A DNA stretch of 64,000 nucleotides, taken from positions 124,001 through 188,000 of the forward strand of contig NZ_SLWB01000003.1 in NCBI RefSeq assembly GCF_004340205.1. The letters are read 5' to 3'. Position 1 is the stretch's first letter, and every line of letters begins with the position of its first letter. This DNA is from Acetobacteroides hydrogenigenes. GTDB taxonomy: Bacteria > Bacteroidota > Bacteroidia > Bacteroidales > ZOR0009. The translations under genes and the position numbers were made by a program. The notes beneath the pieces were generated by a model that worked only from the letters and a program-made list of their open reading frames with translations, was not told the origin of the DNA and did no database searches. Positions 3,793-46,880 of the stretch are shown in pieces.

Positions 3793-4233
3793 CTAGCATT
3801 TCCCAAGCGCTAGCTTAACGTGCGTAGGGTTCTTCAGGTTGTCGCAAACAGGGCAGCGTTCGCCAATGGCCTCTAGCCATTTCTGAAGGGTTTCGGCATC
3901 GGCATCGCAGTCGGGGCGCATTTTTACGGTAATCTCCTTATATCCCGCACGGTCTTCGGTGGGCTGTCCAAAAAGCTTTTCAGGATTTAGCGTTCCGGCA
4001 ATATCGATGCTTACGCTGCGAAGCGTAAAGTTGAGCTCGCGGGCAACCACGTGCGCCATCACGTTAAGGCATCCGGCGAAAGCCGCCAGCACGTATTCTA
4101 CCGGATTGGCCGCAGAGTCGGAGCCTCCAAGGTCTTCTGGCTCGTCGATGGTGATCTGAAAGTTGCGAGCCTTTACAACGGTCTTGGTTGGTGTTTCGCT
4201 ATTCGCGCTTATTCTAAATCGTAAATCTGCCAT
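3793..4233 (-). CDS. OsmC family peroxide/stress protein
   Basis: A 146-residue OsmC/Ohr-fold protein. OsmC proteins are dimeric thiol peroxidases that reduce organic hydroperoxides. C55 in FAGCLNV fits the first redox cysteine; the second is expected near the C-terminus, where C127 and C130 lie in ERCPVC. The two closely spaced late cysteines differ from the single one usual in Ohr. The gene is divergent from the Crp/Fnr gene at 4376, with 142 bases between, so joint control is possible. The ATG at 4231-4233 sits 24 bases after a -7 element. Confidence 0.85.
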   Translation of the reverse strand: MADLRFRISANSETPTKTVVKARNFQITIDEPEDLGGSDSAANPVEYVLAAFAGCLNVMAHVVARELNFTLRSVSIDIAGTLNPEKLFGQPTEDRAGYKEITVKMRPDCDADAETLQKWLEAIGERCPVCDNLKNPTHVKLALGKC

Positions 4234-4257
4234 AACTTTTAGGTTTTGTTATACCGA

Positions 4258-4265
4258 CAAACCTA
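4258..4265 (-). promoter_or_regulatory. -7 promoter element for the OsmC gene
   Basis: On the minus strand this reads TAGGTTTG, matching TAnnTTTG, 24 bases before the start codon. It lies in the divergent gap shared with the Crp/Fnr regulator. Confidence 0.55.
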
Positions 4266-4375
4266 CATCCTTACCCGTAATCGTAAAAGAAAACAACGAA
4301 CCAGTTTTAAGCCGCCCGTGGTGTACTATTACAACGTTAAAGATGTAATTTTACGCTATTCCTAAAATCAGATAT

Positions 4376-5041
4376 ATGAACCCATGCAAGTGCGATGCCC
4401 AATACTGCTTCGATGCCCTTAGCGATAGGGAGCGCGATGTGCTATTCTCGAGCATCACCACCGTAAAGTACAAGAAGGGCGAGACCATCGTTAAGCAGGG
4501 CTTTGCCATGTCGAGCATCCTATTTCTCGAAAAGGGTATCGTAAAGCTAGACGTTGCTGCCGACAACCAGAATACTACCATCAGCATCGTATCCGCCAAG
4601 GCGTTTGTGGGGCTGATGTGCTCGTTTGTCGATCGTCAGGTGGATTTTTCGGTGGTTGCGCTGGTGGATTCGGAGGTTAGCCTTATCGATAAGAATATTG
4701 TGGATGGGCTAATCCGTACCAATGGCGAGTTTGCCAGCCGAATGGTGCACCTAATGTCGCTAATGACCAAGGATATGGTGGGCGAGCTCTCGCGAAAGAA
4801 CACCAAGAACTCGTTGGGCGCCATTGCGCTTACCCTGCTGGAGCTGATGAAGCACTTCGGAAGCACCCGGTATACCCTTCCGTTTACCAGAACCGAGCTG
4901 GCCGAGGTGGTGGGATTCTCGAAGGAGAGCGTAAACCTGTCGTTGGCATCGCTGAGCAAGGATGAGCTGATTGCCCTATCGGGTAAGCACGTCGAAATTG
5001 TGGACGAGGCGCGCTTGCGTACTATCGCGCAGCGGGGGTAG
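4376..5041 (+). CDS. Crp/Fnr family transcriptional regulator
   Basis: A 221-residue regulator. An N-terminal cyclic-nucleotide-binding-like beta-roll (about 15-130: KYKKGETIVKQG...ILFLEKGIVKL) is followed by a winged helix at about 145-215 with the recognition helix FTRTELAEVVGFSKESVNLSLASL. Cysteines near the N-terminus (C4, C6, C11) are too close together and too few to be sure of an Fnr-type iron-sulfur cluster. The ligand is unknown. It is divergent from an OsmC-type peroxidase, so a redox or stress role is a reasonable inference. It is followed by three hairpins in a row (5062-5171). Confidence 0.88.
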   Translation: MNPCKCDAQYCFDALSDRERDVLFSSITTVKYKKGETIVKQGFAMSSILFLEKGIVKLDVAADNQNTTISIVSAKAFVGLMCSFVDRQVDFSVVALVDSEVSLIDKNIVDGLIRTNGEFASRMVHLMSLMTKDMVGELSRKNTKNSLGAIALTLLELMKHFGSTRYTLPFTRTELAEVVGFSKESVNLSLASLSKDELIALSGKHVEIVDEARLRTIAQRG

Positions 5042-5259: not shown

Positions 5260-5630
5260 CCCTGCTCAGTTTTGCGCTTAACTGCATTGAAGTTTTTCAC
5301 CCGGCGACCCGGTTATGCTCTCCGAAGCCTTCGTTTTGCTCCCAGCTTGGTTTTGGGCTTAACTGCATTGCGGTTTTCCTCCCAGCGGTTCTGTGGGCTT
5401 AACTCCGTCGTCGTTTTCTCCACAGCTCGGTTTTGGGCTTAACGCCGTCGTCGTTTTACTCCCAGCTCAGTTTTGGGCTTAACGCCGTCGTCGTTTTACT
5501 CCCAGCTTGGTTTTGCGTTAAACTTCGTCGTCGTTTTCCTCCCAGCGGTTCTGTGGGCTTAACTCCGTCGTCGTTTTCCTCCCAGCGGTTCTGTGGGCTA
5601 AACTCCGTTGAATTTTTTCTCCCGACATGG
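5260..5630. repeat. Degenerate tandem array, 40-bp unit, about 9 copies
   Basis: Units start at 5260, about 5300, 5341, 5381, 5421, 5461, 5501, 5541 and 5581 and follow the pattern CCCAGC-N4-TTTGGGCTTAAC, then GTCGTCGTTTT. From 5341 the period is exactly 40 bp; the first two copies are more diverged. There are no spacers, so it is not a CRISPR array. As 40 is not a multiple of three, the open frames that cross it on both strands are not likely genes. The 811-base gap 5042-5852 otherwise holds only hairpins and the GC-rich palindromes at about 5645-5740. Confidence 0.85.
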
Positions 5631-43448: not shown

Positions 43449-44552
43449 CTATCCTTTATAGAAAGGAAGCTTAGCAACCTTTGCCTTAAGCAGCTTACCA
43501 CGAACGCTTAAGCAGATTTCGGTTCCAACCTTTGCGAACTCTGGCTTCACGTATCCCATACCAATACCAATCTTAAGCATTGGCGACATGGTTCCAGAGG
43601 TTACCTCGCCGATTACGTTACCCTCTGCATCGCAAAGATCGTAGTGCTGGCGTGGAATTCCACGGTCGATCATTTCGAAACCAACAAGCTTACGGCTTAC
43701 GCCTTCCTTCTTTTGCTTCAAAAGAAGCTCCTTGTCGATGAAGTTCTTCTCGTCGGTAAACTTGGTAATCCAACCCAAACCAGCCTCGATTGGCGAGGTA
43801 GTATCGTTGATGTCGTTTCCGTATAGGCAGAAGCCCATTTCGAGACGGAGGGTATCACGAGCTCCTAGGCCGATTGCACGGATGCCTTCTTCCTTACCTG
43901 CTTCGAAGATTGCCTTCCAAAGCTTTTCACCATCCTCATTAGCTACGTAGATTTCGCAACCACCAGCACCGGTATATCCTGTTGTAGAAAGAATAGCATT
44001 CTTAATGCCGGCAACATTTACCTTACGGAAGGTGTAGTACTCCATATCGGTAATAGTTTCCTCGGTAATCTTTTGAACAACCTGCATGGCCAATGGTCCT
44101 TGGATAGCAAGCTGGCAGATTTCATCTGAAGCGTTATAGATCTCCTTACCTGGAGTAAAACCGAACGCCTTGCCCTGCTCTACAATCCAGTTCCAATCCT
44201 TTTCGATATTGGCCGCATTGATTACTAGAAGATAGGTTTCGGCATCGATACGGTAAACCAGAAGGTCGTCTACAATACCGCCCTTACCGTTAGGAAAGCA
44301 AGAGTATTGAACCTTACCATCGAATAGAGCAGCAACATCGTTAGAGGTGATGTACTGTACAAAGTCGAAAGCCTTTGGCCCTTTTACCCAAACTTCGCCC
44401 ATGTGGCTAACGTCGAATACGCCTACCTTCTCGCGAACGGTAGCGTGCTCTTCGTTAATACCAAAGTACTCAACAGGCATGTTATACCCTGCAAAAGGAA
44501 CCATTCGAGCACCTAGCTCTATGTGAAAATTTGTAAAAGCTGTAGTTTTCAT
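43449..44552 (-). CDS. gcvT: Aminomethyltransferase (glycine cleavage T protein)
   Basis: A 367-residue T protein of the glycine cleavage system. It takes the aminomethyl group from H protein to tetrahydrofolate, releasing ammonia. Seen are [12 protein letters not shown] at the start, [19 protein letters not shown], and the end [11 protein letters not shown]. gcvH and gcvP are elsewhere. Glycine cleavage links to the serine cluster just downstream on the same strand, though not in one operon. A good promoter lies just upstream. Confidence 0.96.
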
Positions 44553-44792: not shown

Positions 44793-46358
44793 GTGACACC
44801 AATTATAAAAAGCAAGCCCAAGATACTTCTTGTTGATAGCGACATCAACCTACTCAATAAGCTCGCCCAGCTCTTGGAGCACATCGACTGCGACATATAC
44901 AAGGTTACCAATGGAATGGAAGCTTTTGAGCTGGCCCTTCGAATTAACTTTGACCTTATCATTTCGGAGCTTTTCCTTCCAGAATTAGACGGTAACGAGC
45001 TCGTAAAAAGGATTCGTCAGCTTAGCAACGGTAAAGAATGCGTTTTCGTATTCCTTACCAGCGCCATTAGCGAGGATATGCAGGTAAAGTGCATATCCGA
45101 TGGAGCCGACAACGTCATCGTAAAACCTATAAGGGAAAAGATATTCCAAACTAAGGTAGAGGGCTACATTTCAAGAATCATCGAAACCAAGTACATCCAA
45201 AAAAGACGCTTTAGGCACAACCTTAGCGCAGACTTGGGCGAAATCCTACTTTGTAAGACGGCAGGCTCGCGCACTAAAATAGCCAACGTAGACTTAAAGG
45301 TAAACGAGGTAACCTCCTACTGCGAGTTCGAAAATGTTTTTGCCGCTAAAAACGTTTGGATGATCTTTATTGACGACAAGGCCACCTGGGCCATCAACCT
45401 AATCTACCGAATGGCCCGGCATGTTGGAGCGAGCATTCCCATTTGGCTTATCGCCTGTCGAAAAGCATCCGAATTGCAGCAGCTCAACTTTATAGAAAAC
45501 GGAGGATTTGGGGTGCTTATAAAGTACAAGAACCCCGAAATTCTTTCGCATCAGATAAAAGTTCTAATCGATCGCGAAATCAACATAAAGAACCAGTACG
45601 TAAGCTCCATAAAGCAGGCTGTGCTGACCTCTCCGGTTCACTTTGCCCCAATGTACGAAGAGGATTTCCCGTCGTTCAGGCTACAGGTAAAGTACGAGCC
45701 GTATACGAAACCAGCTGGGGGCGACTTCTACGAAATCGTTAAGCTAGACAACGGCAACACCCTTATCCTACTAGGCGATGTTATGGGTAAAAAGTGGGGC
45801 GCATGGTTCTTTGCCAATGCGTACTTGGCCTACATCCGGGCTAGCCTCAAAGTTTTCCCCACCCAAAAGCAGCTTGAGGTTGGCAACAACCTGGGACTTC
45901 TGCTAAGCGAGATCAACCAGTTTTTGTACAAAGACATCCAGCTATCGGATGCGTTTACTACGCTTACGGCTATGCTGATAGCTCCGGATCAACAACAGGT
46001 TAAGCTAGCTTCGGCAGGTGCCATCTACCCCATTTTCTACTCTAAAAAGGATAGGGCAGCCTCTGTTGTAACCATAAAAGGGAAAATCCTCGGAATCGTT
46101 GAAGAAGAAAAGTATACGGTTGAAGCATTAACCGTTGCGCCTGGCGACAAGGTAGTTCTGGTAACCGATGGCTATACCGAAGCCTACGATACAACAAAGG
46201 AGAAGCTAATTGGGATCGCCAAAATTGCCGCGACGCTAGAAATGCCCCTCAACAAGGGTATTACCAATCTCGACAAACTGGAGCAATCGATCATGGCCAA
46301 CAACAGCATCGATTCGTTTAACGACGACCGCACCATGCTGCTCGTGGAGTTTAAGTAG
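44793..46358 (+). CDS. Receiver-domain PP2C-type protein phosphatase with Glu at the phosphorylation site
   Basis: A 521-residue protein. Receiver domain at about 10-125: acidic D15 and D17, T89 and K111 are normal, but the phospho-acceptor place is E59 (LIISELFLPELDG). A middle part (about 145-265) has a receiver-like pattern as well but lacks the key residues. The C-terminal SpoIIE/PP2C-type domain (about 285-521) has metal residues D311 (GGDF), D329 (GDV), D459 (TDG) and D511/D512. GTG 44793 is the best start. It probably works in a partner-switch pathway; no anti-sigma or antagonist gene is next to it. Confidence 0.85.
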   Translation: MTPIIKSKPKILLVDSDINLLNKLAQLLEHIDCDIYKVTNGMEAFELALRINFDLIISELFLPELDGNELVKRIRQLSNGKECVFVFLTSAISEDMQVKCISDGADNVIVKPIREKIFQTKVEGYISRIIETKYIQKRRFRHNLSADLGEILLCKTAGSRTKIANVDLKVNEVTSYCEFENVFAAKNVWMIFIDDKATWAINLIYRMARHVGASIPIWLIACRKASELQQLNFIENGGFGVLIKYKNPEILSHQIKVLIDREINIKNQYVSSIKQAVLTSPVHFAPMYEEDFPSFRLQVKYEPYTKPAGGDFYEIVKLDNGNTLILLGDVMGKKWGAWFFANAYLAYIRASLKVFPTQKQLEVGNNLGLLLSEINQFLYKDIQLSDAFTTLTAMLIAPDQQQVKLASAGAIYPIFYSKKDRAASVVTIKGKILGIVEEEKYTVEALTVAPGDKVVLVTDGYTEAYDTTKEKLIGIAKIAATLEMPLNKGITNLDKLEQSIMANNSIDSFNDDRTMLLVEFK

Positions 46359-46609: not shown

Positions 46610-46880
46610 GTATCTAAGCTGGAATTGCGCCATCGGCCCTTCCGACCCTCCAAATCTAGCTTAGATTTCCTCCATCCGACCCTCCGATCTGGCAAATCTA
46701 GCTTAGATTTTCTTCCTCCGACCCTCCGACCTGGCAAATCTAACTTAGATTTCCTCCATCCGACCCTCCAACCTGCCATGTCTAATTTAGATTTTTTTCC
46801 TTCAGTCCTCCGATCTGTTAATTCTAAGATAGAAATCCATCGTCCGAACCTACGATGTGGCAATTCTAGGCTTCGAAAAG
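46610..46880. repeat. Degenerate tandem array, 42-bp unit, about 6 copies
   Basis: Units start at 46610, 46652, 46694, 46736, 46778, 46820 and in part 46862; the period is exactly 42 bp. A unit reads AAATCTA-GCT-TAGATTT, then CTCCATCCGACCCTCCGA-N5. Each of the first full units has the perfect 7-bp palindrome AAATCTA/TAGATTT. Open frames exist on both strands (14-residue repeats such as KSKLDL), so a repeat protein on one strand cannot be ruled out, but symmetry suggests DNA or RNA structure. The gap 46359-47112 otherwise holds only the hairpin at 46933. Confidence 0.85.

Follow-up and report, generated by a model that had tools for sequence, protein, structure and literature searches.

A probable PP2C-type phosphatase with tandem receivers, the first a glutamate pseudo-receiver, and the graded series of its orthologues

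The window analysed here is a stretch of 64,000 nucleotides from Acetobacteroides hydrogenigenes. On its forward strand, at 44793..46358 (stop included), lies a gene with a GTG start that encodes a protein of 521 aa, in which two receiver domains, both decayed, stand in front of a PP2C phosphatase domain; the features given below are on the same strand unless stated otherwise. The first receiver, REC1, covers residues 10-127 (44820..45173), and a helix of residues 115-139 (45135..45209) forms the linker out of it. The second, REC2, covers residues 146-247 (45228..45533) and is joined by a long helix of residues 248-278 (45534..45626) to the phosphatase domain, which is of the SpoIIE type (45651..46355). 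The divergent neighbour is a gcvT-like gene on the reverse strand (43449..44552), used here as a marker of synteny; the gene names gcvT, rpsA, rnz and ybeY are assigned by eye throughout.

A Pfam scan of the protein returned a Response_reg match at residues 11-120 (PF00072, E 5e-18) and a SpoIIE/PP2C match at residues 320-520 (PF07228, E 1e-25, 91.3 bits against a cut-off of 25), with no Pfam domain above cut-off between the two and no kinase or anti-sigma domain in the whole scan. The AlphaFold model has a pLDDT of 83 and a pTM of 0.52, the latter being low for the relative placement of domains, and consists of two receiver-like folds, each followed by a long helix, plus the phosphatase. In this model, E59 ends strand beta3 of REC1. 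Pfam and AlphaFold together give a receiver that precedes PP2C, with a helical linker between them, as in partner-switch phosphatases. The order of domains, at first believed to be unusual, is that of a conserved REC-REC-PP2C family of about 520 aa recovered by homolog searches. A pseudogene is ruled out by one open frame in three species and a low dN/dS, and scans for promoters and terminators gave no excess over shuffled sequence. Just downstream of the phosphatase gene, the window carries tandem 42-nt units containing the near-palindrome AAATCTAACTTAGATTT (46612-46863), and both sister species have arrays of a 21/42-nt period, different in sequence, downstream of their own phosphatase genes (L121, 10357-10832; L122, 6965-7384). 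A second tandem array of the window, with a 40-nt period and 6.9 copies, is found at 5331-5608.

REC1 is recognised as a receiver both by sequence and by fold (Z of about 20 to solved receivers), with the residue pattern of a pseudo-receiver. Its phospho-acceptor position is occupied, as predicted, by a glutamate, E59 (GAG, 44967..44969), which falls in the acceptor column of the homolog alignment. The listing of homologous loci used was the best 80 of 307, and the alignment of 89 rows includes L105-L109, whose proteins are identical to those of L057, L050, L030, L056 and L046. Column 59 reads D in 78 rows, E in 4, N in 3 and I in 1, with a gap in 3; without the five identical-protein loci the counts are D 73, E 4, N 3, I 1 and gap 3 (n = 84). 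The acid pair of the receiver occupies columns 15 and 16, which are D15-S16 in the window protein (44835..44840), the second acid being gone. Across the 89 rows, column 16 is D in 70, S in 6, N in 5, K in 1, T in 1 and a gap in 6, and within the genus it is S in the window protein and N and S in the other two species. The catalytic residues said to be kept were D15, D17, T89 and K111. This stands for D15, for T89 (45057..45059, the Thr/Ser position) and for the conserved Lys, K111 (45123..45125), but D17, which is N in both sister species, is not catalytic, as the conserved acid pair is formed by columns 15 and 16. A shift of the alignment that conceals a true Asp is likewise rejected, since the motif matches the acceptor-Asp motif of the relatives column for column and E59 sits at the end of beta3 in the model.

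As judged from the alignment, REC1 has lost the second metal-binding acid and the acceptor, two of five active-site residues, while T89 and K111 remain. The typical traits of pseudo-receivers described in PMC12632262 are a non-acidic residue in place of the second acid, a Glu acceptor, loss of the aromatic residue at K-3 and fewer small residues at T+1. At K-3, the genus has V/I/V (F in 20/20 Labilibaculum/Marinifilum and Ancylomarina rows), and at T+1 it has S/N/N (G in 15/15 Labilibaculum/Marinifilum rows). The Ile at K+2 of the genus is no sign of decay, because it is also present in 15/15 Labilibaculum/Marinifilum rows with an intact receiver. The safest statement of this analysis is that REC1 should be unable to join ordinary phosphotransfer; with the second acid lost and Glu at the acceptor, it would not be switchable by ordinary Asp phosphorylation.

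Orthologues with Asp at position 59 had been named in the original prediction as the sign of a lone mutation. Distant orthologues do carry Asp, but the three genus genomes that the search returned all have Glu at the equivalent of E59, which rules out a lone mutation or a sequencing error. The two sister proteins share 75% and 60% identity with that of the window, and the Glu codons of the three genomes are GAG, GAG and GAA. The same genome has 8 other receiver matches, and in the 7 that were aligned the acceptor is Asp (7/7). In a tree of 47 of the 89 rows, built with the trait columns omitted and leaving out most Ignavibacteriota rows, repeat rows and the short rows L045 and L055, the acceptor Asp changed to Glu at least twice, once in the genus of the window and once in L051. 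The latter is Ancylomarina sp. 16SWW S1-10-2, sister of L034 (support 100/94), in a clade (100/100) where the four remaining rows carry an Asp acceptor. In total, the acceptor changed among D, E and other letters at least 4 times. Position 16 is S or N in all five rows of this Ancylomarina clade, and only one has E59 (the other four D59), from which it appears that the second acid was lost there before the acceptor Asp. The genus of the window has a stem length of 1.36 and a join support of 46/62; its nearest sister is unsure because of this weak backbone. L060 is also a long branch of unsure position. Counted on the tree, losses of the second acid and of the acceptor make 4-5 independent pairs, too few for significance.

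The second receiver had been described as a receiver-like region without the key residues. The acid pair is indeed gone, but beta3 still ends in an Asp and beta5 in K244 (45522..45524; alignment and model), and REC2 homologues in Ignavibacteriota are full receivers, with two PF00072 stretches in L061. The acceptor-like Asp is D194 (45372..45374) in one alignment and in the model, and a second alignment in another register places D195 at the acceptor. In one alignment, both columns, the beta3 Asp and the beta5 Lys, are kept in 72/78 rows. The domain was folded alone because the fold comparison of the whole model barely probed it, giving a receiver-like fold that lacks helix alpha1 (pLDDT 85.2, pTM 0.80). 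Among the 50 Foldseek rows shown for isolated REC2, classed by title and a few by recall, nearly all are receivers or contain one, a chain of respiratory complex I being an exception; the E-values are weak, 3.6e-4 at best. REC2 is a decayed receiver that is canonical in the Ignavibacteriota relatives. The family is therefore REC-REC-PP2C, with REC2 decayed in the Bacteroidales rows and REC1 additionally decayed in the genus of the window. The phylum also has shorter proteins, of about 380 aa, that combine a single canonical receiver with PP2C; such homologues, L196-L211, align to the REC2-PP2C part of the window protein. This form is possibly the simpler ancestor of the tandem-receiver family.

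In the phosphatase domain, the acids D311, D329, D459, D511 and D512, which we take to be the metal-binding residues of PP2C, are D in 89/89 homolog rows. The phosphatase is probably catalytically sound. The linker helix 248-278 could form a dimer coiled coil, as linkers do in related phosphatases. Control of phosphatases by crossing linker helices in dimers is described in PMC12143880, with RssB of P. aeruginosa included, and the helix of the window protein would suit such a mechanism.

The gene neighbourhood of the relatives is rich in partner-switch genes. Neighbours were sought with single-sequence phmmer (E < 0.01) in flanks of 1.5 kb for loci of the genome search and of up to 5 kb for the others, a procedure that can miss genes: phmmer gave no Hpt at L030, yet the Pfam Hpt model finds one adjoining in G146. 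By this procedure, STAS lies near 69/89 homolog rows and Hpt near 28/89 (66 and 26 of 84 distinct loci). The genus shares a gcvT gene divergent upstream of the phosphatase gene with 22 homolog loci beyond it, so the locus is the same. At these 22 outside loci, Hpt is found in 21 and STAS in 17, with at least one of these in all 22, 5' of the phosphatase gene. Beside the phosphatase gene at the three genus loci, no STAS, Hpt or RsbW-like ATPase gene was found, nor any kinase gene beside that of the window, so the linked cognate STAS expected of a partner switch is missing there. In the Ancylomarina clade, Hpt is adjacent at 5/5 loci and no STAS was found at these loci. L052 and L054 have the gene order STAS, RsbW-like ATPase, REC-PP2C (Pfam run on the L052 genes), and the layout of L048 matches it by eye.

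Two clusters retain Hpt next to a changed receiver. At L051, an Hpt gene that keeps the His motif (4538-4993) ends directly before the Glu-acceptor phosphatase gene, and at L060 a His-bearing Hpt gene (3860-4384) is part of an Hpt-STAS-phosphatase cluster in which the acceptor of the receiver is Ile and the Lys is lost. A strict, family-wide link between local absence of STAS/Hpt and decay of the receiver was considered but did not hold: at L041-L043 and L056, none of them gcvT-linked, the neighbour search gave no local STAS/Hpt, yet both the acid pair and D59 are kept. The loss of a phosphorelay-fed partner switch in the genus of the window is well supported, and it is strengthened by the finding that all 22 gcvT-linked loci outside the genus carry Hpt and/or STAS. 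The view of the protein as a partner-switch regulator is supported by the relatives, with STAS, Hpt and RsbW-like ATPase genes beside their phosphatase genes, but not by the window's own neighbourhood. The companion idea, control without a kinase, gains from the broken acid pair and the missing adjacent Hpt.

Candidate partners are present elsewhere in the genome. Each genus genome has one lone Hpt at another locus (the genome-wide count leaves aside the genome of L051), which has weak similarity to the Hpt proteins adjoining the phosphatases of relatives. In G000 and G001, this Hpt adjoins a REC gene and a receiver-like sugar transferase. The clusters concerned, L120 4202-6103 (G000:C24) and L180 2918-4852 (G001), contain Hpt, REC and a fusion protein in which a sugar-transferase-like domain follows a receiver-like N-terminus (names by eye), and adjoin polysaccharide-type genes (by eye); this protein may be another pseudo-receiver of the genus. 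Each genus genome also has one STAS of the rpsA-rnz type, the lone STAS outside the chemotaxis cluster. That of G000:C3, immediately left of the window (L113, 4962-5312), stands in the order rpsA-STAS-rnz and bears a DSSG motif. Across the order, this STAS type occurs in 138/393 genomes (E <= 1e-10) and the phosphatase family in 9/393 (E <= 1e-45), so the STAS is not dedicated to the phosphatase. Our guess is that it would be the likeliest substrate in this genome, with an RsbW-like ATPase beside ybeY as the candidate kinase. Other SpoIIE-type proteins are encoded as well. At L119 (1479-5133, G000:C20), the gene of a SpoIIE-bearing protein is followed by two further genes that presumably resemble SiaB and SiaC, a possible second partner switch, and at L117 (4117-5307) and L118 (3899-5158) two more stand beside ferredoxin-type Fe-S proteins, hydrogenase-like by eye.

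The known kinds to which this protein belongs are the Glu pseudo-receiver and the PP2C partner-switch phosphatase. RssB of P. aeruginosa (PDB 3eq2, 3f7a) has the same layout of N-terminal receiver, helical linker and C-terminal PP2C; among solved structures it gives the best sequence match, which spans only the receiver (residues 10-149, E 7.8e-11), and it also heads the Foldseek hits of the whole model. It has one receiver where the window protein has two, and identity over the fold alignments is only 15-18%. RssB is described as being encoded together with the rsbV homologue rssC (PMC12143880). In the HptB-HsbR-HsbA system of P. aeruginosa, an Hpt, a REC-PP2C protein and a STAS-type antagonist act together, according to PMC6482189, and the gene clusters of the family's Bacteroidales members suggest the same trio. 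However, HsbR also has a kinase/anti-sigma domain, which Pfam does not find in the window protein, and in the genus of the window both the neighbouring Hpt and STAS genes and the acceptor Asp are missing. RsfR of M. smegmatis is described in PMC10950880 as a REC-PP2C phosphatase of an anti-sigma-factor antagonist, and its engineered D74E form is a laboratory twin of the natural Glu; it differs in having one receiver, a histidine kinase partner and a canonical Asp.

With the Glu-type pseudo-receivers of PMC4395418 and PMC12632262, REC1 shares the Glu acceptor, the lost second acid, the kept Thr and Lys and the non-aromatic K-3, whereas the output here is PP2C and the orthologues form a graded series mostly at one chromosomal locus. 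Aspartate-less receivers are described as over-represented where a module has a kinase and a phosphatase domain together (PMC4395418). The fold matches of the model include PleD chains, and the layout of PleD (receiver, pseudo-receiver, GGDEF) is matched by the Labilibaculum/Marinifilum rows, with a canonical REC, then a decayed second receiver, then an enzyme. The window protein is not PleD-like in this sense, with PP2C in place of GGDEF and both receivers decayed.

Our main reading, to which we give a probability of about 60%, is that the gene product is a PP2C/SpoIIE-kind Ser/Thr phosphatase that would act on a phospho-STAS of the anti-sigma-antagonist type, in a partner switch formerly governed by a phosphorelay. 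Both the phosphatase activity and the STAS substrate are what we infer, the latter from the gene neighbourhoods of relatives. Ancestrally, phosphate would have passed from Hpt to REC1. In the genus, REC1 would then have become a Glu-type pseudo-receiver, through the D-to-E change, loss of the second metal acid and disappearance of the adjacent Hpt and STAS, and control at present may be exerted via the amount of protein, the dimer state or a binding partner.

It could be argued that REC1 is a structural relic, whose site drifted after the relay was lost and which merely aids dimerisation, with Glu as the commonest neutral replacement. Glu is indeed the commonest replacement of the acceptor in aspartate-less receivers, at 26% (PMC4395418; also PMC12632262), the acceptor column of the family also reads Asn in 3 rows and Ile in 1, and within the genus REC1 is less conserved than PP2C (57-71% against 68-81% identity). 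Against drift, the REC1 dN/dS of about 0.135 between the two closer species, with dS near saturation, points to a domain under constraint, and T89, K111, P63 and G67 are kept in 3/3 genus species. Glu was also retained through a codon change, which alone is weak evidence. On balance we hold the relic to be rather unlikely.

A tentative alternative, which we rate as rather unlikely, is that Glu locks the phosphatase off by default, with the receiver as an inhibitory lid released by a partner or ligand. The D74E form of RsfR is the nearest precedent, as the change almost abolished phosphatase activity and phosphorylation is described as inhibitory there (PMC10950880). A permanently active phosphatase would, moreover, render phosphorylation of the STAS pointless. 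The descriptions of HsbR (PMC6482189) and RsbY (PMC10950880) as activated by phosphorylation speak the other way, and the Hpt link of the family resembles that of HsbR. Because the receiver input is described as activating in the Hpt-linked HsbR, we lean, slightly and weakly, towards a fixed state in which the phosphatase would be on rather than off, one of the options of the original prediction. An acceptor Glu by itself is described as often insufficient for activation (PMC4395418).

Another thought concerns the Hpt proteins themselves, which may control the phosphatase by binding alone, without phosphorylation, since His-bearing Hpt genes stay in the clusters of chemically dead receivers in L051 and L060. 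The genus of the window would be the end state, with Hpt and STAS gone. We consider this improbable; if true, a phosphorelay would have given way, step by step, to control of a PP2C partner switch without phosphorylation, with the Glu receiver alone holding the switch.

It is more doubtful still that REC1 or REC2 is a sensor of a ligand or protein, for instance through binding of a nucleotide second messenger to a pseudo-receiver. Such binding is described for c-di-GMP in the kinase ShkA (PMC7010744), and both receivers are decayed yet conserved. Least of all do we expect E59 to be still phosphorylated, or D194/D195 of REC2 to take the phosphate, in a relay in trans: the lone Hpt of each genus genome, with its weak likeness to those beside the relatives' phosphatases, would be the donor, but REC1 is without the second metal acid, REC2 without either acid, and that Hpt adjoins a REC gene of its own in G000 and G001.

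Returning to the main reading, its parts are of known kinds, and among the papers listed by our literature search we found none on the REC-REC-PP2C family, on the combination or on the graded series. A 2025 review calls the activation and inactivation of bacterial pseudo-receivers a mystery (PMC12632262). The interest of the finding is the graded series of orthologues that nature has left at the gcvT locus. It begins with an acid pair and D59 together with Hpt and STAS, in Labilibaculum and Marinifilum, and continues with a broken acid pair, D59 and Hpt in most of the Ancylomarina clade. In L051, the acid pair is broken, the acceptor is E59 and Hpt is kept, and the genus of the window stands at the end, with E59 and no local relay. 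The output of this series is an enzyme activity measurable in vitro, so the meaning of an acceptor glutamate would be directly testable.
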